From Candidatus Obscuribacterales bacterium (GTDB lineage: Bacteria; Cyanobacteriota; Vampirovibrionia; Obscuribacterales; Obscuribacteraceae), in the NCBI GenBank assembly GCA_019744775.1, contig JAIETZ010000001.1, forward strand, positions 620,001 to 684,000: 64,000 bases of DNA, read 5' to 3'. Shown one piece after another: positions 8,647-52,397 of this stretch. Both the position numbers and the translations under genes were made by a program. The notes under the pieces were generated by a model that worked only from the letters and a program-made list of their open reading frames with translations, was not told where the DNA came from and did not search any database. Within the stretch, counting starts at the first letter, position 1, and every line of letters begins with the position of its first letter.

Positions 8647-10107
8647 ATGAAGAAACCTGAACCCAAACAACATATACCCCAGGTCGATAAGGTCCTACGC
8701 CATCCGGCTATCACTGAGACTTGCGAATATGTGCGCCGCGAGATTCTCACACGTCTGGTCAGGATAGAGCTTCAGGACCTGCGCGATGGCAAAAGCGACA
8801 TCTATGAAGTTGGAGAAATCGCCGATAAAGTGCGCCGGAAGGCACTTTCCCTACTTGAGCCGCGCCTCAAACGTGTACTTAACGGCACCGGCGTTGTATT
8901 AAATACAAATCTCGGCCGAGCGCCTCTACCAAAGCAAGCCCTGGAAAATCTTCTTGAGACCGGACAACATTATTGCAATCTTGAATTTGACCTGGAGGCA
9001 GGACAAAGAGGGGAGCGTGCTAGTTACATTGAAGAGTTACTCAGACTTTTAACCGGATGTGAATCTGCAATTGTCGTCAACAATAATGCTGCTGCTGTTT
9101 TGCTCGCCGTAAATTCACTGGCACAAAAACGTGAAGTGATTGTTTCGCGCGGCGAATTAATAGAAATTGGCGGCAGTTTTCGTTTGCCGGAAGTAATTGA
9201 ATCTGCCGGCGGCAAACTAAAGGAAGTGGGCACGACAAACAAGACTCGCGTTAAAGATTATCAGCATGCTCTCTCAAATAAGACGGGAATTCTGTTGCGT
9301 TGCCATCGATCCAATTTTGCAATTTCCGGTTTTTGTGAAGAAGCCAGTCGCGAGGAGTTAGTTGAACTTTCTCTCAAGAGCAAAATCCCACTTTTTGAAG
9401 ATCTTGGATCTGGAGCACTAACAAGCTTCTACGAGAATATCGGCTCGCGCGAACCAATGGTCGCTGAAGTAATTCAAAAAGGCGTCAACTTAGTATCGAT
9501 TTCGGCCGACAAACTTTTAGGCGGTCCTCAGGCAGGCATCGTGCTCGGTGATCGCAAATTGATTAAGCTATTGAGAAAGAATCCTCTCTATCGCTGCCTG
9601 CGTCCGGACAAACTGGTCGTTTCAATGCTTGAGTCTCTACTTGCCGATTATCTGACACCGAACTATGAAGATACAATTCCTGTTTTAGCGATGACGAAAG
9701 CAACCGCTCAAGACATTAAAGGAAGAGTAGAAGCCTTTATTCAGAACAACTCTGAGTTGGAAAATCTGAAATTGACTATCAAGCAAACCTCCTCAAAAGC
9801 AGGCGGTGGCAGTCTTCCCGAGACTGATATAGTCAGTTTTGCATTAGTCATTGATGCACCGGTTTCAGCGTCCAAATTAGCCAAGTTACTGCGCAACTCT
9901 TCAACTCCAATCATTCCTTTAATTGTGGATGAGCAGGTAATAATAGATTTCAGAACCATTACAAAGGGCGATGAAAGAGTTTTATTAGACTGTCTCAGGT
10001 GTATAGATCAGGTAGCTTTTCTACCACAAGATATAAGACCAGAAAATGGAGCTATAATCTCAAGGTCAGGGAAACACTCGAAATCCATCATAAGAGAGGA
10101 AATATGA
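8647..10107 (+). CDS. selA: L-seryl-tRNA(Sec) selenium transferase
   Basis: SelA converts Ser-tRNA(Sec) to Sec-tRNA(Sec) using selenophosphate and pyridoxal phosphate. The 486-residue length fits the family (about 460-480). Visible features: the N-terminal tRNA-binding helical domain, GTGVVLNTNLGRAPL, VVNNNAAAVLLA, the SRGELIEIGGSFRLP block, GTTNKTR, and the PLP-lysine motif SADKLLGGPQAG (Lys289). The whole catalytic core is intact. No selB, selC or selD is visible in the window. The gene ends in an ATGA overlap with a small membrane protein gene. It implies that the organism makes selenocysteine, provided the other genes exist elsewhere. Confidence 0.95.
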   Translation: MKKPEPKQHIPQVDKVLRHPAITETCEYVRREILTRLVRIELQDLRDGKSDIYEVGEIADKVRRKALSLLEPRLKRVLNGTGVVLNTNLGRAPLPKQALENLLETGQHYCNLEFDLEAGQRGERASYIEELLRLLTGCESAIVVNNNAAAVLLAVNSLAQKREVIVSRGELIEIGGSFRLPEVIESAGGKLKEVGTTNKTRVKDYQHALSNKTGILLRCHRSNFAISGFCEEASREELVELSLKSKIPLFEDLGSGALTSFYENIGSREPMVAEVIQKGVNLVSISADKLLGGPQAGIVLGDRKLIKLLRKNPLYRCLRPDKLVVSMLESLLADYLTPNYEDTIPVLAMTKATAQDIKGRVEAFIQNNSELENLKLTIKQTSSKAGGGSLPETDIVSFALVIDAPVSASKLAKLLRNSSTPIIPLIVDEQVIIDFRTITKGDERVLLDCLRCIDQVAFLPQDIRPENGAIISRSGKHSKSIIREEI

Positions 10108-10349
10108 GTCAAGAAGGTAATGTGTCTGAGCAACTCAGCGCTTTGTCCAAGAAGATTGAAGATCAATCACGCTTTACCAGAGTATTGGTTCTCATGTGCA
10201 CAAGCGCAATAGCAGCGATCATGTTCTACCTCACAACAGAAGTTGTCTCGAGTTTGCCGATGTTGCAACTGTCTGTTGACCAGCTTCAAGCCATTTACGC
10301 GAAGAAAACCGGCACAGCTGTTGGTGTACCGGCTCCTCCGTCCAAATAG
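10104..10349 (+). CDS. Small single-pass membrane protein
   Basis: An 81-residue protein starting at the ATG inside the selA stop (ATGA, 10104-10107), with GAGAGGAA just upstream. Longer upstream frames would read into selA and are unlikely. Residues 1-20 are polar and helical (SEQLSALSKKIEDQ), then one hydrophobic helix (VLVLMCTSAIAAIMFYL), then a polar extracytoplasmic tail ending in PAPPSK. Translational coupling to selA suggests co-expression, but I see no functional link. No family recognised. Confidence 0.6.
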   Translation: MSQEGNVSEQLSALSKKIEDQSRFTRVLVLMCTSAIAAIMFYLTTEVVSSLPMLQLSVDQLQAIYAKKTGTAVGVPAPPSK

Positions 10350-10443: not shown

Positions 10444-12168
10444 TCATTTATTCAACAAAGCCTGGCGGCGCTTAACTTCCGCTTCCACTTCTTCAGGACT
10501 AATGTTGTTCACCTGCATTGGTCCCGCGCAAATTTCGCGCCAATGAGCCCCAGCCAATGCTTGTCTTACTATTACTTCGAAAACTTGAGCACGCACGCCT
10601 GAACCATAGCTTCCTGGACCGGATGTAAGTCCTGTTGTTGGTGCGCCTGGCACAGAAGCTGGTGCGGCAGGTGCCTGTTGTACAGGAGCCGGAGCCGGTT
10701 GCGGCGCCGGTTGTGCTGGAGCTTGAGCCTGTGGTTGAGCGGGTGCCGGAGCTGGTGCTTGAGCCTGTGGTTGAGCTGGTGCCGGAGTAGGAGCGGCTTG
10801 CTGCGCTGCCTGTTTAGTAGCAATTTCGCGTTCGGAAACCGACACAGCAGGCTCGAATGTAGAATTCGGCTTAGGTGGCGCCGGTGCCGTATCAAAGAAG
10901 CTGGAAGATTGCCCCTTGGGAGCCGGCTCTGCGGAAGGCTTGCTGTCCTGTTTTACCTTTTTTATCTCCATCAACTGAGTTTGCATATCCTTGACCATAA
11001 GCTCAGTTTCAGCTCTCAACTCTTCAATTTGATGACGAAGCATTGCCGCTTCCGATTCTTTTTCCGTGAGCGCCATTTCTTTATTAGTCAAAAGCGATTG
11101 ATATTCACCCTCGCGCTGTTCAGCTTCTTTTGCTACTTCCTCATAACGCTCGGCAAATTCTTCATAGCGCGTTTTCAATTCATCTTTTTCTTGTTGATTT
11201 GCTTGCAAGAGCTGTTCAAATTCTTGCTCGCGCTCTTCCATTGCTCGTTGCAATTCTTCGTTTGCCGCGTGCAAAGCTTCCAACTGAGCGGCAATTTCCT
11301 CATTCTCAACAGCAATTAGCTCTTCTAAAACATTATCACTGGCGCGACTGCCGCCGGCAGCCAGAGGAGCGCGCTTAGGAGGATTAGGAGCTTGCACTGC
11401 CTCGTAAGCAGCTCTGAATAAGTCTTCTGTAAGTCGCTGTGTTCCTAGAAGTTCGACAAGTCTGCGCAATAAATCCGCAGGGTGGTCTTCCGGGAAAATC
11501 GCCATGTAGGCGCATTTAAATGTCCATGAATCAATTGTTCCATTGGCTAATTGATCAGCCAAATTCATAACCAATTGATCTGATGTAATTTCGCCGGCCA
11601 TGCGCTGTTCGCGATCTTGCATGGTGGCAACCATTTGATCAAGAACATCAATCAAATCAGCCAAAGCCTTTGTCGGCTCCATTGCTTGCTGGATCGTATC
11701 CGATAAACCGTTGAGCTTAATGCCTACTTCGTAGAATGTTTGATTTGCTAAAGTGTCTTTCAACTCTTTCAATGTCTCAAGCTGTTCTTGAGCCAGCCCC
11801 TGCACTGCGGCAACGTTGGTCGCACATACATTCAATAACTCATCGAGACTAGCTGGATCAATCGTCTCAACTTTGCCTGCCATTTGTCCCAGAGATTTCT
11901 CCACATTACGAAGTACATCTATGAGTCCTGAAGGATCAAAGTCTGAAGGAAGTGTCGCTTGTTGTCCAGGCACCATTGCCGGTATCACACCTGACTGTGA
12001 GCCTGTTGGTTGTAAATCTTGTTCGGCCATAGCCTTTATATTTTCACTTGTGCTTGCCTGCCCCAAAGAGCCACGCAATCTGGCTCTGCGGGAAGCGGAT
12101 CCCTCAGCCGGCTGATTAGCCGCGCCTTCCGGAATGTCCGGATAACTACTCTTTTCCTCACTAGCCAT
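10444..12168 (-). CDS. Coiled-coil protein with Pro/Ala/Gln linker, unrecognised
   Basis: 574 residues, no signal peptide or membrane helix, so probably cytoplasmic. Order: a charged disordered start (about 1-75), a helical region containing NVEKSLGQMAGKVETI and LIDVLDQMVATMQD, an alpha-helical stretch near 200-260, a long heptad-rich coiled coil (about 280-410, many E, Q, L), a low-complexity linker of PAPAQPQAQAPAPA type (about 430-515), and a compact C-terminal segment of about 55 residues (VRAQVFEVIVRQALAGAHW to EVKRRQALLNK). It is divergent from the two-ATPase operon starting at 12449, sharing a 280-base intergenic region. I infer a possible scaffold or adaptor role from this arrangement only. 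Confidence 0.75.
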   Translation of the reverse strand: MASEEKSSYPDIPEGAANQPAEGSASRRARLRGSLGQASTSENIKAMAEQDLQPTGSQSGVIPAMVPGQQATLPSDFDPSGLIDVLRNVEKSLGQMAGKVETIDPASLDELLNVCATNVAAVQGLAQEQLETLKELKDTLANQTFYEVGIKLNGLSDTIQQAMEPTKALADLIDVLDQMVATMQDREQRMAGEITSDQLVMNLADQLANGTIDSWTFKCAYMAIFPEDHPADLLRRLVELLGTQRLTEDLFRAAYEAVQAPNPPKRAPLAAGGSRASDNVLEELIAVENEEIAAQLEALHAANEELQRAMEEREQEFEQLLQANQQEKDELKTRYEEFAERYEEVAKEAEQREGEYQSLLTNKEMALTEKESEAAMLRHQIEELRAETELMVKDMQTQLMEIKKVKQDSKPSAEPAPKGQSSSFFDTAPAPPKPNSTFEPAVSVSEREIATKQAAQQAAPTPAPAQPQAQAPAPAPAQPQAQAPAQPAPQPAPAPVQQAPAAPASVPGAPTTGLTSGPGSYGSGVRAQVFEVIVRQALAGAHWREICAGPMQVNNISPEEVEAEVKRRQALLNK

Positions 12169-12448: not shown

Positions 12449-15400
12449 TTGGACATTCTTGTCTGTCAAAGCTGCGGTTCCTTTATCCGGGGCAGAGCAA
12501 AATTCTGCACCGGCTGTGGCTCCTATGTCACCAAATTTTCGCCGACAAGTCTTCCTATAGTCGCGCAGTCTTCGCTGCCCCTTGTAGTTGCTCTAAGCCC
12601 TGATCCGTTAGTCTTGGAGAAGGCGCTTATAGAGCAAAAATTCGGTCAATACAATGGCGACAACGGCGGAAATGGAGATCACGGAGGCAACGGCGATTAT
12701 CAGCCGTCGCCGGTCATGGAAGATCCATCTGCTGGAATAAGCATTCCTGATATTCCAGATTCACCTACGCCGGACGAATTTATGACGCCGACTCCGGAAC
12801 CCAATTTCGCAGCTGAAGCAGAGGCATCTTTCAATGCTTCGCACTTAAGCAACATTATCGCTTCGGCAGGCACAAGAACGCCGACATCGAAGACGGCAGA
12901 TGCTCAAAAGATATTCGACCTATTGGGACCGGAACCGGAGCCGGAGCCGGAACCAGAACCGGAGCCGGAACCAGAGCCACAAGAATTTACACCCACGCAG
13001 TCTCCTCAAGTATCTGTGCAACCGTTTCACCCGGGCGCTCAACCCGACCAAAATTTCGCACAGGAATTTATGGCTGAGCCACCTCCGCCTCCAGCTTCCG
13101 CTGCAGGTATGCCCCCCCAAGATTTTTCGCAAGCCCCGCAGATACCACAACCTCCGGCGCCGCCTATGCCACCTGCGCCTACCGCCGCACCATCATTTAG
13201 TCCAATGGCACCAGCTAGCGGCTTTTCAGCAGTCCCGACAGCAGATACATTTAGTCCGGCTGCGCGCGAAACTACATACGAAGAAACGCCTAAACCGCAA
13301 GCTGCTGAGCCGGCAACTAATCCATTTGCAAAAGAATCTTTCGAACCATCGCCTGGAGTGCCACTGCCTCCGCCATGGGGCAATGATCCAAGCAAAGCTG
13401 CTCCGGCAGAACCATCTTATGCCGAAAATAAAACAGTCGAATCGGACAATTCTTCGTCGTCCAAAGAATCAGCGTCACAAGCTCAACAAGTGCGTGGGCT
13501 ATTAGCCAGACGTGCAAGTAATCGCGCCAAAGAGGACGACTTAGATGACAAGGAAATGAAGGAAGGCAAACCAACGCCTTGGAAAATGCTCACTGAACCA
13601 GTAGAAATTGCTGGTCGTTCTATTCCCAAAGGAGCCTTGATAGTTGCAGGAATTATTGCTCTGTTCCTTGGGCTGAGACTACTTGGACCAATAACAGGAT
13701 TTGTTGGTGGCGCATTCGGTGATTTGATTGCCGGCGCCAAGATAAATGATGCTCCGCAATTAAGCGGCGATTGGCGCAATCGATACCAATACGACAAGAA
13801 AACGTATACGGGCAAGATGCACGTTGAACAAAACGGCACAAAACTCCAGGGTGAAGGCTATGATCCCGATCACTTTGTTATAGGGGGCGTCTATCATCCA
13901 CCAAACGTTTCATTTCAAAAGACGTATTTAAAATCGGACGGCACCGCGCAAAGCGGTAAGCCGATACTGTGCACCGGAACTGTCCAATTAACAGATGACG
14001 GTAAAACCGGAATGGTCGGCACCTATAAGAAACAGATCGGCATTGGTCAGTTTATACACCGCCGAATAGTCAATGTTGAAGGTCCGTGGGAAGCTGTTTT
14101 AGTACATTCAACAGCTCCGGAGAAATCAGACGGACTGGAATTACCGCAAATGCCTGGTGAAGGTCCAAGTCTTAGCGACGATCCAACGCAAGGTCCGCGT
14201 GACTTCTTCACAAAAATAGCCTTGGGCATAGTTGTATTCTGCGTCCTTCTCGCCATGTTATCACTCAAAGTATTCGGTCCATCCGGCTTACTAAACATTT
14301 GGGGCAAGAAGGAATATATTCCGTCCCAATTCCGCTCACAACACAATAAAATGCTCAAGGAAATGGGCAAACCATTGAAGAAGGGCGGTCTGCCTCTGGG
14401 CAAACGTCTTGATTGGAATATTCTGCAGTTCGACAAGCCGCAAAATTTGGTTTTGCCGCCAAACATGCGTGATTCAAACCCACATATTCTAGTGATAGGT
14501 GCCGGTCAAAAAGGCAAAACCAGATTGATGGCGAATATGATCTGCAACGACATTGTCAGCGCAGACAGAGCTGTTGTTGTTATCGATTCTGATGGAAGCC
14601 TGGTCGACTTAGTCGTTAATTGGATAGCCGCTCATCCCAAGGGTGAAAAGCTTGCCGAGCGCGTCATAATTATGGACCCGACTCACAAAGGTGGCTGTCC
14701 TGCATACAACCCACTGGAGATGCCGGAAAACGGCGATCTACAGGGAGCCGCCTCGGCTGTGGTTTATGGATTCAAAGCCATTTACACGGAGCCGCCAGGT
14801 TCACAATCTCAATGGAATCAACAGACTGCAAATATTGTCCGTAACTCTGCTCTCTTGCTGATGGCTAACGGCAAGACGTTGACCGACATGGAAAAACTCT
14901 TGAGCAGTGACAACGATTTCCGTGATGTGCTCTTGGAAAAAATCGAACGCCAGAAAAACGAGCGAGTTGAGTACAACACCTTGCTTCAACAGTGGGACAA
15001 CTACAAGCGACTAGCTCGTTCTGATCAGTGGATTACCTGGACGGAACCAATTCGCAACCGCATTGCCGCAACACTTTCAGACCCGCGTATTCAGCCGATT
15101 TTGACGAAAGCAAAAGGTGATTTAAACCTCGTTGATGTCGTCAATCAGAAGAAGGTGCTGCTTGTAAAAGTGCCACAAAGTTCGTTCGATGATAATGCCA
15201 ATTTGCTTGGAAGCTTGATTGTCACCGGCTTGAAGCAAGCAACACTTTCAGGAATACCAGGCAAATCCGCTAAGCGTCCGTCTACACTTTATTTGGATGA
15301 ATTCGATAACTTCATCGAAAAAGACACCATCGATACTATTACATCGGAAACAAAGACATTCCAGATTGGCTTGGTTGGCGCATGCAAGACGTTGCAGCAC

Positions 15401-15763
15401 TTACCGGAAGATGCTCGCAACCAGATGGCCATTCACATGGGCACTATCTGCGCATTCTCCTTAGCCAAGAAAGATGCTGATATGTTGGGACCGCAGATGT
15501 TCCGCGTGGACGGCAGAAAAATTAAGCACCAGACGATTCAGAACGTCTTTAATAAAGTAAACACAACTCCCCAGTTCGAATTAATATCTGACGAAGAGAA
15601 GCTCAACATCGACCGCGTGGTGGGTCAAGAAGAGCGCACATTCTTCTGTTATCGCGTAGGCACCGTAGCCGGCGTCTTCCATTTGAAGGCTCCGGATTTC
15701 AAAGACGTTCCGGAAAAGGATATCAATTGGGCTCTCGTGGAACAAATGTATGGGAAGGCCTAA
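12449..15763 (+). CDS. Membrane-anchored VirD4/TraG-like ATPase with zinc ribbon
   Basis: 1104 residues from a TTG start. Order: an N-terminal zinc ribbon (Cys6, Cys9, Cys20, Cys23: CQSCG and CTGCG); a long Pro/Glu/Ala-rich disordered region with EP repeats (about 60-390); membrane helix 1 (VAGIIALFLGLRLLGPITGF, about 395-415); a beta-rich extracytoplasmic domain of about 150 residues (GDWRNRYQYDKKTYTGKM onward); membrane helix 2 (FTKIALGIVVFCVLLAML, about 585-605); then a P-loop ATPase with Walker A GAGQKGKT (684-691) and Walker B STLYLDEFDNF (Asp950, Glu951). The ATPase half resembles TraG/VirD4 coupling proteins that feed DNA or protein into secretion channels. The zinc ribbon and the large insert are unusual. 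Six bases separate it from the HerA-like gene. Confidence 0.8.
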   Translation: MDILVCQSCGSFIRGRAKFCTGCGSYVTKFSPTSLPIVAQSSLPLVVALSPDPLVLEKALIEQKFGQYNGDNGGNGDHGGNGDYQPSPVMEDPSAGISIPDIPDSPTPDEFMTPTPEPNFAAEAEASFNASHLSNIIASAGTRTPTSKTADAQKIFDLLGPEPEPEPEPEPEPEPEPQEFTPTQSPQVSVQPFHPGAQPDQNFAQEFMAEPPPPPASAAGMPPQDFSQAPQIPQPPAPPMPPAPTAAPSFSPMAPASGFSAVPTADTFSPAARETTYEETPKPQAAEPATNPFAKESFEPSPGVPLPPPWGNDPSKAAPAEPSYAENKTVESDNSSSSKESASQAQQVRGLLARRASNRAKEDDLDDKEMKEGKPTPWKMLTEPVEIAGRSIPKGALIVAGIIALFLGLRLLGPITGFVGGAFGDLIAGAKINDAPQLSGDWRNRYQYDKKTYTGKMHVEQNGTKLQGEGYDPDHFVIGGVYHPPNVSFQKTYLKSDGTAQSGKPILCTGTVQLTDDGKTGMVGTYKKQIGIGQFIHRRIVNVEGPWEAVLVHSTAPEKSDGLELPQMPGEGPSLSDDPTQGPRDFFTKIALGIVVFCVLLAMLSLKVFGPSGLLNIWGKKEYIPSQFRSQHNKMLKEMGKPLKKGGLPLGKRLDWNILQFDKPQNLVLPPNMRDSNPHILVIGAGQKGKTRLMANMICNDIVSADRAVVVIDSDGSLVDLVVNWIAAHPKGEKLAERVIIMDPTHKGGCPAYNPLEMPENGDLQGAASAVVYGFKAIYTEPPGSQSQWNQQTANIVRNSALLLMANGKTLTDMEKLLSSDNDFRDVLLEKIERQKNERVEYNTLLQQWDNYKRLARSDQWITWTEPIRNRIAATLSDPRIQPILTKAKGDLNLVDVVNQKKVLLVKVPQSSFDDNANLLGSLIVTGLKQATLSGIPGKSAKRPSTLYLDEFDNFIEKDTIDTITSETKTFQIGLVGACKTLQHLPEDARNQMAIHMGTICAFSLAKKDADMLGPQMFRVDGRKIKHQTIQNVFNKVNTTPQFELISDEEKLNIDRVVGQEERTFFCYRVGTVAGVFHLKAPDFKDVPEKDINWALVEQMYGKA

Positions 15764-15769
15764 TTACTG

Positions 15770-18700
15770 ATGGAATCAACAGGCGGAAACCGGAATATTT
15801 GGGAAGAGCGTATCGCTGAACTTAGGCGATACGATCTCGACATCTTGGAAACTGAACCCCCAAATCCTATGGAGGTTCAGAGTTGGCCTATTCCGGGTCT
15901 GACTTTTGTGCGCATCGACGGCATTTTGAGATCTTGGGATATCGAGCGCGAAAAGCAGCAGCAGAATCAGAACAACCAACCCAAGAACGACCCGAATCAA
16001 CTTCCTCAACGCATGTACCTTATGGAAGATGCGCTGGCGGGTCTGCACAGTCAAAAGTCCAACTTGGGATTTTTGATTCTGGGCAGCAAAACAGGCGTCA
16101 ATTACTACATGGGCATGTCTGTGCCGACATCAGGCGAAACCAGCAATGGTGAAGACGCCGCGCAAATATCCTATACGACTGTTAAGTCCATTCTGCACAG
16201 CGTTTACAACGGCGTTGATATCTATAAAGAGCCGTTCTCCAGCGATCAAATAAAGCAGATGATCACGCCGTTGACCGCCCATGTTGGTATCACAACAGGA
16301 ATTCCAGCGCTCAAAAGCACGACCGGCGACACAATGGAATCCGAGCAGATAGAGCGTATTGCCAACGGTCTGCAGGGTCATGAGTTCGGCATACTTGTTC
16401 TTGCATTCCCAATACCTTCGCAGTACATAAGCAAGGAAGAATTCACTGTCGTTGATCAAATTCAACGCGCGCAAGAGAGTGAAGATCCGGAGAAGAAGAA
16501 AAAGATCAAGTACTACCTTGAACTACAAGATGCTTATCTCAAGCACTTGCAATTAGGTACCGCTATCGGCAGTTGGCAAACAGGCGTCTACTTCTTTGCT
16601 CCTGACAGATCTGTGTTTGTGCGCTTGCAGTCACTAATTCGTGCAACTTACGTCGATGAGACAAGCCGTCCGACTCCTCTGCGCACACATGAATTTTCCG
16701 GTTTGAAACCACATTCAGAGCAATTCGGACTATTGTCTAATACACGCTCTGGAGAAAATGTCTCACAGTTGCTTGGCTATCGCTTTGTCACGCCTTTAAA
16801 TTCGCGCATGCTTTCGGCTTACATTCACTTACCCAAGCGCGAGATGCCTGGATTTCGAGTGCGACGTTCAGCCGAATTTAGTTTGGCCGAAGTGCCACCT
16901 AAGAATCCGGAGCGTGTGATAGCTGTCGGCAATATTCTGGATAGGGGCGTAGATACCGGCAACTTGTACAACGTCGATGTGGACGCACTTCAAAAACACA
17001 CAATTGTCTGCGGAGTAACAGGGGGCGGTAAAACAAACACTTGTTTCTATTTGCTCAACCAGTTGTGGCGATACAAAGTCCCCTTCATGGTTATCGAGCC
17101 TGCCAAATCTGAGTACCGGCACATGATGCTCATGTCGGAAACATTCAAGGGTGTTGGTCAAGCGTTCTCCCTGGGTGACGAAACTGTATCTCCTTTCAGA
17201 CTGAACCCGTTTGAAATCATGAAAGGCGTCAAAGTACAGACACACTTAGACGCCTTGAAGTCGGTATTCAACGCCAGTTTTGAAATGTACGCACCTATGC
17301 CTCAGGTTTTAGAAAAAGCCTTGAACGCAATTTACAACGTGCGCGGCTGGGACCTGGTGCAGAACTGCAACAGGCGCCTACCCCCGGGTGTAAATCCTGG
17401 TGATCCTGATTGCCCGCCGGAAATTTATCCGACGATGAAGGATCTTTTTGAAATCATCGATCCTATTACTGAAAGCTTCGGCTATTCGGAAAGAATTGGT
17501 CCTGACGTACAGGCCGCCTTGAAAGCTCGTATTGGTTCTCTACTCATCGGCGGTAAAGGACAGATGCTCAATACCAGGCGTTCAATTCCGCCAGAAATTC
17601 TCTTCGGTCGCCCCACTGTCGTTGAATTGAAGATGGTTTCAGAAGATAGCGAAAAATCATTCCTCATGGGTATGCTACTCGTCTTTTTATACGAATATCG
17701 CGAATCATTAGGACCACACGACAATCTGCAACACGTAATGCTTGTAGAAGAGGCTCACCGCCTGTTGAAAAACATTCCAACAGGTCAAAGCTCGGAGTCC
17801 GCCAACCCAGCCGGTAAAGCCGTTGAATTCTTCACCAACATGTTGGCTGAAATTCGTTCGTATGGACAAGGCTTTATCATTGCCGACCAAATTCCAAATA
17901 AACTCGCTCCGGAAGCGTTGAAAAACACAAACTTGAAAATCATGCACCGCATCGTGGCAACAGACGACCGCGACTCCATGGGCGGCGCCATGAATTTGGA
18001 CGATATTCAAAAGCGTCACGTCACAGCTTTAGGAACAGGACGAGCAATTGTCTATGCCGAGCGCATGGAGCAGCCTTATCACTTAGCGATCATGTACGAC
18101 AAAACAGCTTCTGTGCCGCCTCCGGAAACGCCTGAAGAATCAGATACCGTTGTGCGCGAAGCGATGAAAGAAATGAAGATCGTCGAGAATTTCGACAAAC
18201 ACTTGGGCTGCCGCTTCTGCCTGCATCGCTGCGATTCACAAATTTTCGATACTGCTGTGCCGGTAGCTGACGATCCACAATTCCGTCAAGTCTTCAACAG
18301 ATATGTACTTTCTACAATCAAAGATCTCACACAACTTGTTCAATTCCGGCCAAAGATAATTAGCGAAATCCAGCGTGTAATTGGTGGTCGTGCCAGATCC
18401 GGTAATTTGCCCGGCATAACCTGGTGCGTACTTACACAAGCCTCGGAGCGATACTTCGAACGCAAGGGCGAGGAAAATTATTGGTACTACGATCAAGTAC
18501 GTGAACAACACATGCGCTGGTTGAATTTATTAAGACCGGCATTCCAGCCAACAGAAGTTAACCGCCGCATTGACATGAGTGTGCTTCGCCAGTGGCGAGA
18601 AGATTTCCTTGAACTGCACAAACGCGATCAAGGTCCGCTGCCCACTTGCGGCCCCTGTACATCGAAATGTCTCTATCGTTTTGAAGTTAACGAAGTTGTC

Positions 18701-18973
18701 CGAGATCCCAAAATCAAATACGACTTCAACACTTCAATTAACCGCAAAGACACCTCAGCATCGGACGCAGCGGCGTGGTTCTGCCGCCTGCTTTCCGAGC
18801 GTCTTGTCGGTCAATTAGATGTAGATCTGGCATTCTGCCTGGCAGTGCATTTAATCAAAGAACAACAACTCTCCACAGATGCGCAAATAGTTCTCTTGCA
18901 TAAAGTCCGCCAGGCTCTTGAGGGTTTCCTCAACGAAGGCGAAGAAGAAATGCAAGAACCGCAACAAGAATAA
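15770..18973 (+). CDS. HerA-like (DUF87-type) P-loop ATPase with paired Cys clusters
   Basis: 1067 residues, no membrane segment. The N-terminal 400 residues hold a poorly characterised region with alpha/beta elements (GFLILGSKTGVNYYMG, FGILVLAFPIPSQYI). The ATPase core has Walker A GVTGGGKT (415-422) and Walker B HVMLVEEAHRLL (Glu660, Glu661), with the sensor-like FIIADQIPNKLAPEALKNTN stretch typical of HerA/VirB4-like motor ATPases. Two identical-spacing clusters follow: CRFCLHRC (814, 817, 821) and CGPCTSKC (960, 963, 967), probably binding zinc or an iron-sulfur cluster. HerA relatives form hexamers that pump DNA or protein. Its 6-base spacing from the VirD4-like gene suggests one machine. 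The substrate is unknown. Confidence 0.8.
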   Translation: MESTGGNRNIWEERIAELRRYDLDILETEPPNPMEVQSWPIPGLTFVRIDGILRSWDIEREKQQQNQNNQPKNDPNQLPQRMYLMEDALAGLHSQKSNLGFLILGSKTGVNYYMGMSVPTSGETSNGEDAAQISYTTVKSILHSVYNGVDIYKEPFSSDQIKQMITPLTAHVGITTGIPALKSTTGDTMESEQIERIANGLQGHEFGILVLAFPIPSQYISKEEFTVVDQIQRAQESEDPEKKKKIKYYLELQDAYLKHLQLGTAIGSWQTGVYFFAPDRSVFVRLQSLIRATYVDETSRPTPLRTHEFSGLKPHSEQFGLLSNTRSGENVSQLLGYRFVTPLNSRMLSAYIHLPKREMPGFRVRRSAEFSLAEVPPKNPERVIAVGNILDRGVDTGNLYNVDVDALQKHTIVCGVTGGGKTNTCFYLLNQLWRYKVPFMVIEPAKSEYRHMMLMSETFKGVGQAFSLGDETVSPFRLNPFEIMKGVKVQTHLDALKSVFNASFEMYAPMPQVLEKALNAIYNVRGWDLVQNCNRRLPPGVNPGDPDCPPEIYPTMKDLFEIIDPITESFGYSERIGPDVQAALKARIGSLLIGGKGQMLNTRRSIPPEILFGRPTVVELKMVSEDSEKSFLMGMLLVFLYEYRESLGPHDNLQHVMLVEEAHRLLKNIPTGQSSESANPAGKAVEFFTNMLAEIRSYGQGFIIADQIPNKLAPEALKNTNLKIMHRIVATDDRDSMGGAMNLDDIQKRHVTALGTGRAIVYAERMEQPYHLAIMYDKTASVPPPETPEESDTVVREAMKEMKIVENFDKHLGCRFCLHRCDSQIFDTAVPVADDPQFRQVFNRYVLSTIKDLTQLVQFRPKIISEIQRVIGGRARSGNLPGITWCVLTQASERYFERKGEENYWYYDQVREQHMRWLNLLRPAFQPTEVNRRIDMSVLRQWREDFLELHKRDQGPLPTCGPCTSKCLYRFEVNEVVRDPKIKYDFNTSINRKDTSASDAAAWFCRLLSERLVGQLDVDLAFCLAVHLIKEQQLSTDAQIVLLHKVRQALEGFLNEGEEEMQEPQQE

Positions 18974-18993: not shown

Positions 18994-19659
18994 ATGAAAG
19001 CAGCAAGTCTTGCGGCAATTGCTCTAGTGCTTGGTTCGAGCTTGGCATGTTATGCCGAGACGCCACAACAAGTTTGGGATCGGCTGAAAGAAGGCAACAA
19101 ACGCTATCTTGGCGGCAAAAGTATTCATCCGCGTTTTGATGCTGCTAAACGACAACAAACAGCTCTTAATGGTCAAAAACCAATTGCTACCATTTTAGGA
19201 TGCGCCGATGCACGCGTGCCTCCAGAAGTAGTTTTCGACCAAGGTTTTGGAGACCTGTTTGTCGTCAGAGTTGCCGGCAATGTCTGTGCAATAGCTGAAT
19301 TAGCCTCGATTGAATATGGCGTCAAATACGTAAAAACGCCTCTAGTTGTTGTTTTAGGACATACGCAATGTGGTGCTGTAGATGGTGCAGTAAGGGGAGC
19401 AGAATTGAAGGGAAGCTTACCGAAACTGATGGCTCTGATAACACCGACAACCGACAAAACCAAAAAGAATCATCCGGAACTAAAAGGCAAAGACCTTCTC
19501 AACGCCGCAATCGAAGACAATGTGCGTAACTCCATTTCCGAGATCAAGAAAAACAGCCCAGGATTGACAGACTTGGTCAAGCAAAAGAAACTGCTAATCG
19601 TCGGCGGCATCCGCAACATTGAAAATGGCACAATACGCTGGTTGGATGCAAAGCAGTAG
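18994..19659 (+). CDS. Periplasmic beta-class carbonic anhydrase
   Basis: Converts CO2 to bicarbonate. 221 residues with a signal peptide (MKAASLAAIALVLGSSLACYA, cleavage near residue 21). The zinc site is complete: GCADARVPPE gives Cys70, Asp72 and Arg74, and LGHTQCGAV gives His123 and Cys126. The canonical CADSR is changed to CADAR, a tolerated variant. The C-terminal VGGIRNIENGTIRWL is the usual last strand of the family. It follows the HerA-like gene by 20 bases with AAAGGAC as ribosome site, so it may be co-transcribed. Export of a beta-class enzyme points to periplasmic CO2/bicarbonate exchange. Its stop abuts the stop of the convergent LCP gene. Confidence 0.92.
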   Translation: MKAASLAAIALVLGSSLACYAETPQQVWDRLKEGNKRYLGGKSIHPRFDAAKRQQTALNGQKPIATILGCADARVPPEVVFDQGFGDLFVVRVAGNVCAIAELASIEYGVKYVKTPLVVVLGHTQCGAVDGAVRGAELKGSLPKLMALITPTTDKTKKNHPELKGKDLLNAAIEDNVRNSISEIKKNSPGLTDLVKQKKLLIVGGIRNIENGTIRWLDAKQ

Positions 19660-37891: not shown

Positions 37892-40800
37892 TTAGTTATT
37901 CGCCGATGTTTTGAACGGGCCGGACTTAGACGGCAACATAGTCAAAATAACAGCTTGCTTGATCATACGCTGCACCAGCCTTCTATCATCCGGGTTGTCA
38001 GAGGAAAGCATGCGCTTCACAGGCTGAACGCTCATCATTACAGAAGGCAGCGAAAAGTCAGCTGAATAGGCGCGAATGTCGCTTGCCACCATATGTGCGC
38101 GTGCATTTTTGTAACCTATTAACTTTGATGGATTCACACGATCAAAATCCGCATCAAGCTGCCTGGTCAACACTACTTGCCTGCCTGGCGACAAGGTAAT
38201 TACTTTATTGCCTGACTTTACACGCACACGGGCATGCGGCCCATCATTGATATCAAAGACCGCAACATCATGTCCGGTTTCCATTACAAGCACCGACGCA
38301 CCGTTAGGCACTTGGACTTCGCCCTCTTGAACTTGTACATTGATGTCGTTTTGAGGCTGGAAGAAAAAATTACCCTTTTGTAAAACGCATAAATTGGCCG
38401 TGCTTTGTGAGCCGAGAATAGCTCCATGTGAGTGCATTTCATTTACGACGTCAGAATTAAAATCACTGGCATTGCAATAAGCAAAGCTCTGCCCAAGCGC
38501 TTCACTGTCTAAGGGAGGGGTCGACTGCGGGTTTAAACTATTAGCAGTAAGATCTTCTATATCGATATTATTCAAAGAATTGCGTGACGCCCATTTAACA
38601 TCTTGGTTGATCTGCGAACCTGCCTGAAAGAAATTTATGTTCGAATTTTGTACCTGCTGAATGGCACTACTGTCCTGTCCATTAAGCACGTTCAAGTCCG
38701 AATTTGCAAACGAAACTAACGCGAAAGGATTCGTCGTCATAGCAGGAACCCCAGGAATCGAAGGCGCAGGAGGAGTCGGCGGCGGACCATTGACGATGAA
38801 ATTCGGATTGGTAGCACTAAGGCTCGGCGTATAGAGATAAATCGGACTATTGCTTGCCCCTATCGTTCCTCCCGGAGCAGAAAGTATAATATTGCTAGCG
38901 ATAAGCGAAGACATACCGGAATGTGCCGGCAAATTTACAATATTTTGCGCCGACAAGTTAATACTTTGCCCAGGCGTTCCAATAGTCGAGCTTGAGTTGG
39001 AAACAAGGCCATTCAGGAAAAGAGTTCCCGATCCATTAACTGAAATATTCAGCTGAGTAGAATCACCAATAACCGAAGAATCAAGTATTAGATCACCTTG
39101 CTGCAATAAGTATACATTTCCATTGGTGGCAAAATGAAGATGAGATGCTTCAATGCTTAAGGCAATGCCACCGGACACCGGATCAGAGCCAATATTGCCT
39201 GCAGTTGTTATAAGTGTTATTGATGGGCTTAGCAGTGTTACCAATGAGGACGTTGCTCTAATGTCCCCCCCTGCGCTCAATGTAACTGCGCCGCCTAAAC
39301 CTGCGTCGTAAGCCTTAACATTGCCACCAAGCGTAATCACTCCATAAGCCGAAATGAATACATTGCCTGCCGCGCCACCGTTGGCAGAGGTGTCAATCGC
39401 GCCAACCGTAACAGAGCTGTTGCTAGACAGTAGAAAGACTGTACCGCCTGCGCCTGTGCCGGTGTTAGAAGTGTCGATTGTTTGTGTACTCAAAGATTCA
39501 TAAGCCGCAATAGTTACATTACCTGCTGCGGCGGCTCCGCCCGCGACAGAGGTATCAATCCCGCCAGTGGTGACAGAGCCATTGGTTGATATTAGAGTAA
39601 CCGTGCCGCCTGATCCTGTGCCTGAGTTAGAAGCGTTAATAGTTCCGCCGGCAGTGATATCTCCATAAAACGAAATGCTGACATTGCCGGCCGCCCCTGC
39701 ACCACTGCTGTATGTGTCAACACGTTGCATGGATATTGGGCCATCCTCAGAGACCAAATTAACATTGCCACCACTGATACTGCCATGAGTATCAACGCCG
39801 ATAGTATGGGTGAGCGTCAAACTTGCGAATGTCACAAGTGCCACACCATCAGCATTAGTGCCACTAGATGACTTTATAGCCCCTATTGTAATTGGAAGAA
39901 AAGCAGTCACAAAAAGCGGTGCTATCATTGATGAATTGCCGCCACTATCAATGGTCAGGACAGTGTCGCTGCCGGTTATCGATCCGTATCCCTTCGGATT
40001 ATAATTTGATGTTGGCCCTGAAATTCCAGTTACCGACACATTTATTGTTGTCGATGAACTTATCGACATTGGACCACTTGTATAGTTCGGATTTACCGAT
40101 GCTTGATTTCCCAAGCCCACATAGTTTGTTGAATATGTCCCCTGAGGGATATTAGATCCTTGAGCGGTTATTGTTCCATTGGTTGTAATTGTTCCTGGTG
40201 ATATCAGTATTACTTGCCCGGTCGCTGACCCATTACTACTGTTGTAAGCATTAATACTACCTGCAGTAATCGAGCTAGCTGTTTTCTTACCGGATGATAA
40301 AAATACTGACCCGGATTGTGCACCACTGCTTGCAACTGCAGCTGTGTTGGTCGTGTTTATGTTACCTACAACCAACGTCCCTAGAGAGGCTATCCCTACC
40401 GAGCCGCCTACTCCACTTTTCCCTGACGCGGTCGTTGTGATGGCTCCAATACTTGTAAGCGCGTTTGCAAAATCATCTGACACTACTAATACAGACCCAC
40501 CAGCAGTTGACCCAGAAGTGTTCAAGTTTCCCATTTCAATGGAATAGTGTCCATTATCAAAGGAAGAGGCAGCAACAATATTACCGCCAATAAAACCAGC
40601 ACTTGAGGTGTCGACATCGTCGGTCTTCATTGCTACTGCCCTCAATAAGGTAACGTTGCCGCCTGAGCCTGCGCCATGGTGATAAGCTTTAATCTTTCCC
40701 GTAAAAATATATTTATAGGCCGAGATTGCCACATTGCCTGCCGGCGCCGAACCGCTTGTGGCATAGGTGTCGATCTCGCCGATTGTAATATCAGCAGCAT

Positions 40801-43800
40801 TTGCTGTTAAGGTAACTGAGCCGCCTAAGCCTGCGCCGGCGTTAGAAGCATTAATTGCTTGCCCGTTCGTACTGATACCTGAGGCGGCCAATATATTTAC
40901 ATTGCCCGCTGCTGCAAATGAGTTCGCGCTGCCAACGTCGGTGCGGATCCCGCCAGTTTTGATAGATCCAGTACCTGATGATGTTAGGGTAACTGTGCCG
41001 CCTGCACCTATGCCGCCGTTATAAGCATTTACCATATGCTGATTCGTACTGATAGCTCCATAAGCCGAAATAGTTACATTACCTGCGGCCGCCAAACCGC
41101 GTGTGACATGGGTGTCGATCTCACCAGTTGTAACAGAACCAGTGAGTGACAAAAGTGTGGCATTGCCGGCCTTCGTGCTATTGGAATTAAAAGTATTAAT
41201 TGTGCCAGTGCCAATAGATTGAATGGATGTGACATTCAGGTTTGCACCATTTGTATTAATATCACTCAAGCTCACTTGATTAGCAATCATGGTTATACTT
41301 CCAGTTTTGCTGGTGTAAGTGGTGGCACTGTTCACTGATACTGTCTTTGTGATCAAGAAAAAATTGGCTCGACCCGTGCTGTCATTAATTGTCCCCAGGG
41401 AGCTGACGGCACCGTGCACTACAACAGGTACAAGATCACTGAAGGCAATGACATTTCCACTGGTGCCTGCGTCATTGGCAAGTGTTACTGTGCCGCTATT
41501 TTTAAACGACGCAAATCCGCCGCCTGGAATCATTGCCGGTGTAATTGTGGCTGTTGCACTGTTGGTAAAGGACTGCGGCAATATATTAACGGCACTTGTG
41601 TAGGTTCCAGTTGCATAAATGTGCCCGTTATCCACTGAAAGCGTGCCACCATCTGTAAATGATTGGACCGTAATAATTCCACTGGTTGCCGCTGTTGCTA
41701 ACAAAGCACCACCGCCTAGGTTTATCGCACCTGTTGCTATTGCCCCGGTACCGGTATTGCCTGAGCTCAAAAATACTGACCCGCTGAGAGTGCCAGAGGT
41801 TGTGGCAGAAGTTATGATAGTACCCAAACCAATAGTGTTACCACTAATCAAAGCAACAGAGCCACCGGCACCAGTACCTGTGTTATCAGTGGCAATGGCA
41901 CCAGTTACAGTAATAGCTCCGGAAGCCAAGACAATTACATTACCGGCAGGTGCCGAGCCGCCACTGACACTGGTGTCGATCCCGCCAATTGATGCAGAGC
42001 CATTAATTGTTGTTAGAGTGACCGCGCCACCTGCTCCGGTGCCACCGTTAGAGGAATTAATCGCTGCGCCGACAGTAATAGATCCATTAGCCTGGATAGT
42101 CACAGTGCCGGATACCGCCGACCCGCCGCTAACATAGGTGTCGATCCCGCCAGTAGCAACAGAACCATTGCTAGAAATTAGAAAAACTGTGCCGCCTATG
42201 CCTGTGCCACCGTTATGAGCATTAATTGCATTGTTATTCGTGTTAATGGCTCCGTTAGTTGAGATAATCACATTACCGGCTGCCCCCGAACCACTTGTGA
42301 CATATGTATCAATTTCATGGGTTGTAACTGACCCAGTGTTTGCTGTTAGAGTAACTGTGCCGCCCACGCCTGTACCGCTGTTAGAAGCGTTAATCGTTCC
42401 GCCGGCGGCAATAGTTCCATAAGCCGAGATAGATACAGCACCTACTGCTGTCGAACCGCCACTTACATGGGTGTTGACCTCACCGGTTGTAACTGACCCA
42501 GTGCTGGATGCTAAAGTAACCGTGCCGCCGTTAGTAGCCTCAATCTTGCCCGCATTAACGGCTCCGTAAGCGTAGAGATTTACATTCCCCGATATCGTCG
42601 AACCAACACTGACATTGGCGTCGATCTCGCCAGTCGTAATTAAGGCACCTGATAACAGCGTGACCATGCTCCCTGCGCCTGCGCCGGCGTTAGAAGCCTT
42701 AATGTCTCCGGTAGTAATAGATCCATAGGTCGAGATAGTTACATAGCCGGCTGTCAGCAAATTGCTGGTGAAATCGGTGTTGATCTCACCGGTTATAACT
42801 GAGCCATTACTGGATGTTAGAGTGGCTATGCCGCCTGTGCCATGGCCTGCGTTAGAAGCATTGATCTTTCCTAAGACAGCAATAGTTCCTGAAGCCGTAA
42901 TAACGACATTACCGGCTGCCGCTAATGATGACGCATTCTGGACGTTCGTATCTATTTCTCCGGTTATAACAGAACTATTGCTTGACGTTAGAGTAACCGT
43001 ACCGCCTAAACCTGTGCCACTGTTGCTAGCTACAATGGGACCCGCGCTCGTGTTAACAGCTCCAAAAGCCGAGATAGTTACACTGCCTGCTGCTGCCGAA
43101 CCGCCACTGACGGAGGTGTTGATGGTGGGGACCAAGCTGAGAAATCCGCCAGTTGTAACGGAGCTACTGTTTGAAATTAGAGTGACTGTGCCGCCTGAAC
43201 CCGTCCCTGAGTTAGAAGCGTTAATCGTTCCACCGACAGTAATAGCTCCATTACTCGCCATACTAACAGAACCTGCCGCCCCTGCACCACTGCTTTCTGT
43301 CTCAATACCGACAAGAGATATCTGTCCGGCAACAGCGAGCAAATTAATATTGCCACCACTGGTAGTGCCAACCGTGTTGACACCAACAGCTCCACTCAGC
43401 GCTATATCTCCAAACGCTACCAATGCCACCCCATCAGCCTGGGTGCCACTATTTGAATTTATAGACGCAATTGAAACATCTCCCAGACAAAGAAGCGGTG
43501 CTAACAATGATGAATTGCCGCCACTATTAATGGTCAATTGAGTGCTGCCGCCACTCATTGATGAATAGCCTTGCGGGTTATAATTTGAGAATAACCCTGA
43601 TATTCCGGTTACCGATACATTTATGGTTGTAGATGAACTTATCGATGTCGTAAAACTTATATGAATCGGATTTACAGAGCTGTTGCCCGCAGAAGTCGTT
43701 ATTGTGCCTGGAATAATACCTCCTGATGCGATAAGTATTACTTGTCCTGACGCTGATCCATTTAAATTGTACGCTTTAATATCGCCTGCTAAAATCGCAT

Positions 43801-46800
43801 CGATAGCAGTGCTGCCGGATGACAAAAATACCGACCCTGATTGTGCGCCACTGCTTGCAATTGCAGCTGTGTTGGTCGTGTCAATGTTGCCTACCTCCAA
43901 CGCCCCTAGTGTAGCTATCCCTACTGATCCGCCTACTCCACTTTGTCCTGAAGCTTGCGTTGTGATGGTACCAATAGCTGTCCCCATAGAATTTTTGGAT
44001 ACTACTAATACAGATCCGCCAGCAGCTGACCCCGAAGTATTCAGGTTTTCCATTGCTATGGAATATAAGCCATTATCACCACCAGCAGCAACAGCAATAG
44101 TGCCGCCAACAAAACCAGCACTTGAGGTGTCGACGTCGCCTATGAGAGTCACTGCTCCTGCACGACTCAATAAGGCAACATTCCCGCCTGAGCCTGTGCC
44201 TTTGCTGGAAGCATCAATCGCTTTGGTTTCCAAAAGTAGTCCAGCGATACTAATAGATCCATAGGCTGAAATATCTACATCGCCTGCTGCCACCGAACCT
44301 AAACCGACATGGGTGTCGATCCCACCGGTTGAAATACTACCTCCAGCCGATGTTAAGGACACTGTGCCAGCGCTGCCTGTGCCCTGGTTAAAAGCTTGAA
44401 TTGGCCACAGGTTCGTAGTAATATCTCCAGCAGCTGAAATAATTACATCACCTGCCTCCACAGTGTTGCCGACACCCGTGAAAAGCCATGCAGCTGACAC
44501 AGCGCCATGGCTTGATATAAGAGTAATTGTGCCACCTGTGCCTGGCCCGGCATTGTATGTCCAAATTGGCTGGTCGTTCATATTAATATCGCCGTAAGCT
44601 GAGATAGTTACATTACTGGTTGCTATCAAACCACCGTAGGCAGTAGCGATGATACCATTAGTAGAGACAGAGCCATTGCTTGATGTTAATGCAACCGCAC
44701 CGCTTGTACCTGTGCCGCCGTTGGAAGTATCAATGGCTTTGCTTATATTAATAGCTCCATAAGCCGAAATAGTTACATCGCCGCCGTTTCCTGCACCACC
44801 CACGACATGTGTATCGATTGTGCCGGTTGAGATAGAGATAGAGCTAGTGCTTGACGTTACAGTAACCGCGCCGCCTGTGCCTGAGCCTTGACCGGTGTTA
44901 TAAGCCTTAATGCCTCCGGCAGTGATAGATCTATAGGCCGAGATAGTTACATTACCTGCTCCTGGAGCGCTTTCGACATAGGTGTCGATCTCGCCAGTCG
45001 TAATAGAGCTGTTGCTAGACGTTAAAAGGACCGTGCCGCCTGCACCAACGCCTGTGCCTAAGTTAGAAGCATTAATGGCATTAATGCTCATAGCTCCGAA
45101 AGTTGCGATAGTTACACTACCTGCTGCAGCTGTTGCACCAGCGACAGTGGTGTTGATCCCGCCAGTTGCAATAGAATTATCAGTTGAAGCGAGGAAGACT
45201 GTGCCGCCTGCACCTGTGCCTGAGTTAGAAGCGTTAATTGTTCCTGTGACAGGAATAGCTGCCCAAGCGGAGATATTGATAGAGCCTGCCGCCCCAGAGC
45301 CACTGCTATTTGTGGCAATACTTGTAATGGATATTTGTCCAGCCGAAGACTGCATAGTGACATTGCCACCACTGGTGCTGCCGGCTGCGTTGATGCCTAC
45401 CGTGTCGCTGAGCGTCAAATTTCCAAATACCAACAGTGCTATGCCATCAGCCGCAGTATGACTTTTTGAATTTATAGACTTTATTGTCATTGGAACAAAA
45501 GCAGTAAAGACAAGCGGTGCTAACAACGATGAATTGCCGCCACTATCAATGGTCAACACAGTGTCGTTACCGCTTAGAGCTGCATATCCACTCGGATTAT
45601 AATTTGACGACGGCCCTGATATTCCAGTTACCGACACATTTATGGTTGTAGATGAAGTTATTGATAATAAATTGTTCGTATAATTCGGGTTCACCGATGC
45701 AACACTCCCGCTCACGACATTTGATGAAAATGTCTGCGCAGAGATTGTGCCAGCTGAAGTAGTTATGGCGCCATAAGTTGTAATAGTTCCTGATGCGATG
45801 AGTATTACTTGTCCGGTCGCTGATCCATTTGCTGAGTTGTATGCGTTGATGACGTCTGCAGCAATCGCGTTATTGTTTTTGCTACCGGATGATAAAAATA
45901 CCGACCCTGATTGTGCTCCACTGCTTGTAACTGCAGCCGTGTTGGTCGTGTCTATGGCCCCGACTGCCACGGTCCCTAGTCCGGATATTCCTACTGCTCC
46001 ACCAACTCCATTTGGTCCTGTCGCTTGCGCTGTGATGGTACCAACAAGCAGAGGCTTCGCCCCAAAATCATCACCAACTAACATGATGGAGCCGGCAGTC
46101 GTGAACCCAGAAGTTTTCAAATCTCCCATTACAAGGGTATAGACACCATTATCACCGACAGCTCCGGCAATAATAGAGCCGCCGGCAGAGCCCGTACTTG
46201 AGGTGTCGATATTTGCCGTACCCATTGCTGCCGCTCTTACCAAGGTAACACTGCCACCTGTGCCTGAGCCTGCATGAGAGGCGTTAATGTTGCCCGTATT
46301 GATTAATTGCAAAGCCGAAATAAACACATTGCCGGCCGGTGCCGAGCCACTTGCTACATGCGTGTCGATATCATTAGTTATAATCGAAAAGGTCTCTGAA
46401 GTTAGCATCAAGGTGCCGCCTCCGCCTGTGCCTGAGTTAGAAGCGCTAATTACTTGCCCGTTAGTTCTTATAGCTGAGGCAGACAAGATAGTTATATTGC
46501 CTGCGAATGCATTCGACGACGTGTTGTTGATGCTGGTTGAGATCTGTCCGGTTTCAACAGAGCCATTGCCGGAAATTGTTATATTAACCGTGCCGCCTAT
46601 TCCTGTGCCTGAGTTAGACGCGTTAATGGCTTGATAATTCACACTTTGATTATTCGTACTAATAGTTCCGTAAGCCGAGATAATTACATTGCCTGAGCCT
46701 CTCGAGCCACTTGTGACATTGGTATTCACCGCGTCAGTTGTAACAGAGCCAATGACTGACAAAAGCGAGGCGCTGCCGGCAACCGTGCCACCAGAATTAA

Positions 46801-52213: not shown

Positions 52214-52397
52214 TGTTAAAGCACCACCCATTCTTGGTGCCCGCACACTAGTTATGTGTCCGCTAGCTTTCTAGACATGGTCAAATTGACCATAGCTATA
52301 GTTAGCTAACGGCTCGCCCCCTACATTTCATACCCAGCCGATTGGCTCACAAAACCTTTCCGGGACTGAATTCACGAACCATTAACCTTCGCAGCAG

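Follow-up and report, generated by a model that had tools for sequence, protein, structure and literature searches.

A VirD4-type and a HerA/CedD-clade ATPase encoded side by side in Obscuribacterales, tentatively two motors of a type IV secretion-like translocator

Two motor ATPases at one locus

We analyzed a 64,000-nucleotide stretch of DNA, hereafter the window (C1:620001-684000 of genome G000, which is 4.10 Mb in size and 98% complete), in which two large motor ATPases are encoded 6 bases apart. The close relatives of this genome are metagenome-assembled genomes (MAGs) of Candidatus Obscuribacterales, non-photosynthetic Cyanobacteriota. We call the protein encoded at 12449-15763 F1 and that encoded at 15770-18973 F0. 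A preliminary description had taken the first to be membrane-anchored and VirD4-like and the second to be soluble and HerA-like, both of unusual architecture, an account upheld by the open reading frames (ORFs), the predicted helices, the Walker A and B motifs in both proteins, the TrwB fold of F1, the HerA/CedD motor of F0 and the presence of both across the order. The motors are of known kinds, here in a new combination and setting.

F1 (12449..15763, forward strand) is a VirD4-type coupling ATPase (type IV coupling protein, T4CP) of 1104 aa with a TTG start, assigned from its ORF, profile searches, a structural model, hydropathy and orthologues. It begins with an N-terminal zinc ribbon (CxxC...CxxC, 12464..12529; weak DZR/zinc-ribbon matches) and a long disordered region, followed by a membrane helix, a predicted beta-barrel, a second membrane helix and the motor domain. 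A similar ribbon stands at the C-terminus of the VirD4 of a type IV secretion system (T4SS) locus, L127, described below. Hydropathy and the model both place two hydrophobic helices ahead of the motor, at about residues 391 and 583, and these helices with the 8-stranded beta domain between them, which is predicted to be periplasmic, occupy 13619..14275. The AlphaFold2 model of residues 373-1104 (predicted local distance difference test score, pLDDT, 79) comprises this helix, beta domain and helix and then a motor with an inserted helical domain. Motif inspection locates Walker A (GAGQKGKTR, 14498..14524) and Walker B (LYLDEFD, 15287..15307) in the motor, and between them the helices of the model delimit a TrwB-like all-alpha insert (14738..15145).

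A fold search with this model returned TrwB first (1e9s, E 7e-12, TM-score 0.67 on the target), followed by HerA (4d2i), Cag-beta, DndH and DotL, and by its modeled fold F1 is a coupling protein. In sequence, the motor matches the VirD4-type models PF10412 and NF045973 weakly, reaching 19.3 bits against PF10412, slightly below the cut-off of 20.5, and an orthologue in a relative (G011:C11:374455-375363) exceeds the cut-off of PF02534 (T4SS-DNA_transf; 23.9 bits); a profile search of F1 against the PDB returned low-complexity noise only. In the motor tree F1 groups with the VirD4 of its own genome (support 91/87) in a long-branch join. In 9 of the 23 aligned F1 sequences Asn, Cys or Asp stands in place of the Walker-B glutamate, and hydrolysis by F1 appears to be dispensable in many relatives. 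Some loci carry F1 as tandem copies, and at three loci (L049:5840-7825, L050 and L080) a motor-less paralogue, F9, with zinc ribbon, membrane helix and beta domain, lies between F1 and F0.

F0 (15770..18973, forward strand) is a soluble ATPase of 1067 aa that its ORF, profile searches, relatives and a fold search place in the HerA/CedD clade; hydropathy predicts no membrane helix in it. An N-terminal alpha/beta region (15872..16804), delimited from the secondary structure of a model, is followed by the motor domain (16922..18139) and by a C-terminal helical domain (18182..18934) whose two cysteine clusters (C814/817/821 and C960/963/967), recognized by alignment and motif inspection, probably bind metal. 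This helical cysteine domain is also found in other proteins of relatives. Across an alignment of 32 sequences, the EEAH of Walker B (LVEEAH in F0) and FIIADQIPN, which includes the motor motif IIADQ, are invariant, and Walker A (GVTGGGKTN) and KNTNLK.MHR (KNTNLKIMHR in F0) have a single variable position each.

By sequence, the F0 motor sits on the HerA/CedD side of the superfamily. It scores above the cut-off of the DUF87/HerA model PF01935 (26.6 bits), reaches 58-81 bits against CedD and up to 51 bits against HerA models, and matches the VirB4 model TIGR00929 at E 0.018; the equivalog cut-offs are not passed for CedD in NCBIfam (58 bits against 600) or for the NCBIfam HerA equivalogs (23-46 bits against 800-970). 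The significant PDB matches of the F0-family profile are mostly HerA-type chains, with no VirB4 chain among them. Direct hhalign comparison of F0 with VirB4 gave a probability of 5%, because the F0 alignment is shallow, and comparison via plasmid relatives gave 98%, over the motor only. A search for the HerA_antiphage family gave no matches, with controls equally blank. Phylogenetic placement, which the preliminary description had proposed as a check, puts F1 with VirD4 and F0 outside the VirB4 group on the HerA side, though on long branches, so that for F0 the tree carries moderate weight only. A Foldseek search with the weak F0 model (mean pLDDT 65) placed TrwK/VirB4 on top (E 9e-12), and on this model the N-terminal half of F0 is tentatively likened to the N-terminal domain (NTD) of VirB4.

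Synteny and distribution

Our order-wide counts cover 27 Obscuribacterales genomes and 13 genomes from other orders of Vampirovibrionia. F1 was found in 26 of the 27 (missed in G019) and F0 in 25 (missed in G002 and G019), the MAGs concerned being 85-88% complete, and both were undetected in all 13 genomes from the other orders of the class. Sequence identity of F0 amounts to 77-95% among members of the family and to 58-60% against its sister-family counterparts, so its reading frame is not a product of chance, and it is single-copy at full length in most genomes of the family.

Both neighbors named in the preliminary description, a coiled-coil protein and a carbonic anhydrase, flank the pair. 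The former, F4 (10444..12168, reverse strand), is a divergent coiled-coil/disordered protein with no Pfam family and is the syntenic partner of F1 in this family and in its sister family; the latter (18994-19659; PF00484, 1e-36) lies to the right of F0. Beyond F4 is F5 (10104..10349, forward strand), a single-helix membrane protein of about 80 aa that is syntenic with F4-F1 in both families; the window's copy, an ORF read from an inner ATG, was matched to the F5 family by eye. The usual order in the family is selA - F5 - F4 - F1 - F0 - F2 - F3, where F3 is a convergent giant, present in 29 loci and up to more than 2400 aa long in the excised loci, with LysM-like repeats (recognized by eye) and a zinc ribbon. 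The window's genus has neither F2 nor F3 beside F0 and the carbonic anhydrase is its genus-specific neighbor there; the C-terminus of F3 finds only weak partial matches elsewhere in G000. Apart from one close relative, the 6-bp gap between F1 and F0 is confined to this genus; the gap measures 47-412 bp in most relatives and about 2 kb in some.

In the sister family the order selA - F5 - F4 - F1 is retained and F0 lies on other contigs, duplicated, which identifies F1-F4-F5 as the older syntenic unit; F0 sits beside F1 in this family only, unless the sister family has lost that arrangement. At least two sister-family F0 loci adjoin giant repeat proteins unrelated to F3, and kinase-like proteins adjoin F0 copies there too. 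A survey of neighbors, as the preliminary description had advised, thus supports F4 and F5 as companions of F1 in both families, but neither the carbonic anhydrase nor F0. The same description had suggested an undescribed machine and had said that unlinking of the two genes in relatives would speak against it. They are unlinked in the sister family, and with T4SS-like loci elsewhere in the genome we reject a stand-alone two-gene machine; the novelty stands to the extent that we found no description of the F1/F0 pair in the open-access literature.

The remaining window neighbors are of housekeeping type (SelA, SpoU, histidine kinases, Mur ligase, MurB, D-Ala ligase, photolyase). Absence of families from the window was judged by Pfam scans of the larger ORFs, in which we found no T4SS channel, no VirB gene or relaxase linked to F1, no NurA, and no mobile-element family, integrases included; searches of the whole genome for VirB4, VirB10, relaxase and PF02534 likewise gave zero matches inside the window, in agreement with the earlier statement that channel, relaxase and NurA are missing from it. 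Farther to the right, on the reverse strand, the window encodes a 4784-aa repeat-rich putative surface protein (37892-52246) and, adjoining it, a Ser/Thr protein kinase (52398-53426; PF00069, 4e-37). The surface protein ends in a 300-aa module that recurs in 21 of 30 order genomes, G000 having 10 copies and one relative as many as 25.

T4SS-like loci elsewhere and the role of the pair

The preliminary description had presented the pair as lacking a secretion apparatus; this does not hold for the genome, which carries two chromosomal T4SS-like loci, both of VirB4/PrgI/VirB6 type: T4SS-1 (L126; G000:C2:381000-400000), with no linked VirD4, and T4SS-2 (L127; G000:C4:481000-500000), with a VirD4. 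Their VirB4/TraC-type ATPases match PF19044 at about 1e-19 and NCBIfam VirB4/TraC models at 139-202 bits, and both loci encode small PrgI/VirB3-like proteins with 1-2 predicted transmembrane helices and polytopic VirB6-like proteins. T4SS-2 additionally encodes the VirD4 (PF02534, 3.5e-13), which bears a zinc ribbon of its own, together with a VirB8-like, a Replic_Relax and a TadG-like protein. Assignments other than VirB4, VirD4 and Replic_Relax follow size, helices and position, PrgI and VirB6 having no Pfam match. An alignment of both VirB4 types finds matches in 27 of 27 order genomes, nearly all at two places, and VirB4 of the order's type in 0 of the 13 genomes outside it; no PF02534 match lies near the T4SS-1 VirB4 in the 24 genomes of the family. 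One relative (G004:C1) carries two bona fide T4SS loci with VirB4 (576 and 558 bits), TrbI, PF02534 and relaxase. We found no publication on a T4SS in Obscuribacterales in the open-access literature. The preliminary description had also allowed that both proteins might belong to a known T4SS clade with its other components just outside the window. F1 is indeed of VirD4 type, but F0 is not a member of the VirB4 clade, and the putative channel genes lie elsewhere in the genome, not next to the pair.

We tentatively favor, at slightly less than an even chance, the explanation that a T4SS-like translocator specific to the order, its genes dispersed over the chromosome, has F1 and F0 as two of its ATPases. 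The main argument for coupling F1 to T4SS-1 is that F1 has no linked VirB genes and T4SS-1 no linked VirD4 in the same genomes; in addition, the distribution of VirB4 (27/27 in the order, 0/13 outside) mirrors that of F1 (26/27) and F0 (25/27). Starting from what was directly observed (the fold or clade to which each motor domain belongs, the conserved motifs, joint inheritance across the order, synteny and the existence of the other loci), we infer a membrane topology, ring assembly, contact between F1 and F0, use of the T4SS-1 channel, and a direction and substrate of transport. F1 would form a ring in the inner membrane and serve as a coupling platform. On the cytoplasmic side its zinc ribbon and disordered N-terminus would dock or recruit a substrate or partner, and the beta-barrel flanked by its two membrane helices would touch the envelope part. 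F0, a soluble hexameric pump of HerA/CedD type whose N-terminal half would resemble VirB4, would dock on the membrane complex from the cytoplasm and act as an ancillary motor that drives ATP-powered threading. The channel would most likely be the VirB6/PrgI of T4SS-1, the locus with no linked VirD4, T4SS-2 being less likely. As to substrate, G000 has no PF03432 relaxase, and this, together with contexts linked to toxins and giant proteins, weakly tilts the balance to protein over DNA.

Several points weigh against this explanation. The complementarity of F1 and T4SS-1 is circumstantial, because one clade boundary underlies all of it, and the co-distribution amounts to a single evolutionary contrast that many genes would match. 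We found neither a physical nor a regulatory tie of F1 and F0 to either T4SS locus, the two genes are unlinked from each other in the sister family, and a further VirD4-family protein of G000 (C1:501160-502380; PF02534, 171 bits) could serve T4SS-1 in place of F1. The weak F0 model (pLDDT 65) gives TM-scores of only about 0.2-0.3 to whole VirB4 chains, and sequence profiles show no likeness of the F0 NTD to VirB4. The genome search that the preliminary description had suggested for channel or relaxase genes recovered candidates for the former, at the two T4SS-like loci, but no PF03432 relaxase in G000, and DNA conjugation is on that ground unsupported.

An unlikely alternative is that F0 is a domesticated conflict-family ATPase, a HerA-type motor for toxin handling or defence with toxin/immunity or nuclease partners, whose adjacency to F1 is secondary. 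Homology spanning 861 profile columns (E 5e-142) connects F0 to ATPases scattered on plasmids of Rhodococcus, Streptomyces, Embleya, Planktothrix, Acinetobacter, Lactococcus, Treponema, E. coli and others, and its family is sporadic in Cyanobacteriota (10 of 386 genomes, G000 included, or 9 of 385 others, ~2%). Plasmids of E. coli, Lactococcus and Treponema carry a conserved dynamin-dynamin-HerA-like ATPase-HNH operon (L090:2683-11082, L093:1978-10761 and L112:1972-10839), a candidate conflict system, which in E. coli and Treponema is followed by an SMI1/KNR4 gene; the nuclease of the E. coli operon belongs to the LHH family (PF14411, 1e-25), and the relative in S. clavuligerus precedes an annotated ADP-ribosyltransferase. 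When the E. coli relative was examined for downstream toxin variability, 1 of 5426 genomes carried it. These contexts link the wider F0 family to conflict systems, to judge from gene neighborhoods, and do not imply membership of the Obscuribacterales F0; the duplication of sister-family F0 apart from F1 would fit the same history. On the other side, F0 in Obscuribacterales is near-fixed, mostly single-copy and strongly conserved, with no recognizable toxin or immunity gene adjoining it, and the neighbors of several relatives carry no toxin assignment.

We consider it quite improbable that giant surface proteins are exported or displayed by the pair, with F1 anchoring a channel in the envelope and F0 pushing very long LysM or repeat proteins through it. 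The arrangement of F2 and the convergent F3 after F0 in most family loci and the unrelated giants at the two mapped sister-family F0 loci are what this would predict, yet no F3 adjoins F0 in the window's genus, and the unrelated giants occur in many copies (10 in G000, 16 in G024), so their adjacency to F0 may be chance and does not decide whether they are dedicated partners of the pair. The C-terminus of F3 is a conserved rather than variable domain, and we rejected F3 as a polymorphic toxin. A role in handling chromosomal DNA (repair of the HerA kind, segregation or natural import of DNA), in which F1 would be the membrane anchor, seems more improbable still: it draws on the HerA/CedD-clade motor of F0 and on the archaeal analogue CedD, which is needed for DNA import (PMC11868833), against which stand the VirD4-type architecture of F1 and the lack of any NurA or Mre11/Rad50-type family among the window neighbors in the Pfam scans. 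A remnant of an integrated conjugative element that has lost relaxase and channel, which the VirD4 type of F1 and the plasmid-borne relatives of F0 might suggest, is largely refuted by order-wide conservation and retains only the slightest probability. Vertical inheritance, the synteny with selA-F5-F4 that F1 keeps in both families, the conservation of the catalytic motifs of F0 and the lack of any mobile-element family among the scanned window ORFs also count against it.

Returning to the split translocator, a broader claim, which we regard as doubtful, is that it constitutes a fixed, chromosomally split T4SS-like machine in which a motor of HerA/CedD type works alongside VirB4 and the coupling protein bears a new beta-barrel in the periplasm. 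It would be the bacterial equivalent of archaeal Ced, with a core function rather than one in conjugation. If true, the hybrid HerA-VirB4 pumps of archaeal DNA import would extend to a bacterial order, and a T4SS-like apparatus would be a near-universal chromosomal trait across an order of uncultured cyanobacteria, with the gene set F1, F0, F4, F5, T4SS-1 and T4SS-2 making the role of non-conjugative chromosomal T4SSs testable. F0 also points to a widespread, scattered ATPase family that is sometimes toxin-linked.

Comparison with known systems

VirD4/TrwB T4CPs are the best structural match of F1, sharing two membrane helices ahead of a P-loop motor with an inserted all-alpha domain. Unlike them, F1 has a zinc ribbon and several hundred disordered residues ahead of its first membrane helix and an 8-stranded beta domain between the helices, many of its orthologues lack the Walker-B glutamate, and no relaxase or VirB genes are linked to it.

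For F0, the closest parallels are crenarchaeal CedB and CedD, which are reported to combine a HerA-clade motor with a VirB4-like NTD (PMC11868833), the combination that F0 tentatively shows; CedD is among its best NCBIfam matches. F0 differs in being bacterial, in its extra C-terminal cysteine domain, and in having no transmembrane helix and no adjacent CedA-like gene; CedA is a VirB6-like channel, and putative VirB6-like polytopic proteins occur in G000 at the two T4SS-like loci. VirB4/TrwK proteins are the top fold matches of the low-confidence F0 model, whereas the motor sequence groups with HerA and G000 has separate VirB4s. With HerA itself (HerA-NurA, and the SIR2-HerA and DUF4297-HerA defence systems) F0 shares DUF87/HerA motor signatures, but it is larger, its low-confidence model has no HAS-barrel-like N-terminus, and no NurA, SIR2 or DUF4297 partner accompanies it. 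HerA/FtsK motors have also been recruited to conflict loci in the HerA/FtsK capture systems (Rakesh et al., 2024, PMC10853773); here the partner is a membrane-anchored VirD4-like protein instead of DndFG, Orc/Cdc6 or a D5 helicase. Within the same class, the T4SS of Vampirovibrio, proposed to serve predation (PMC4451040), is of the conjugative VirB4_T type with two of its three operons on plasmids, and is distinct from the chromosomal loci of Obscuribacterales.

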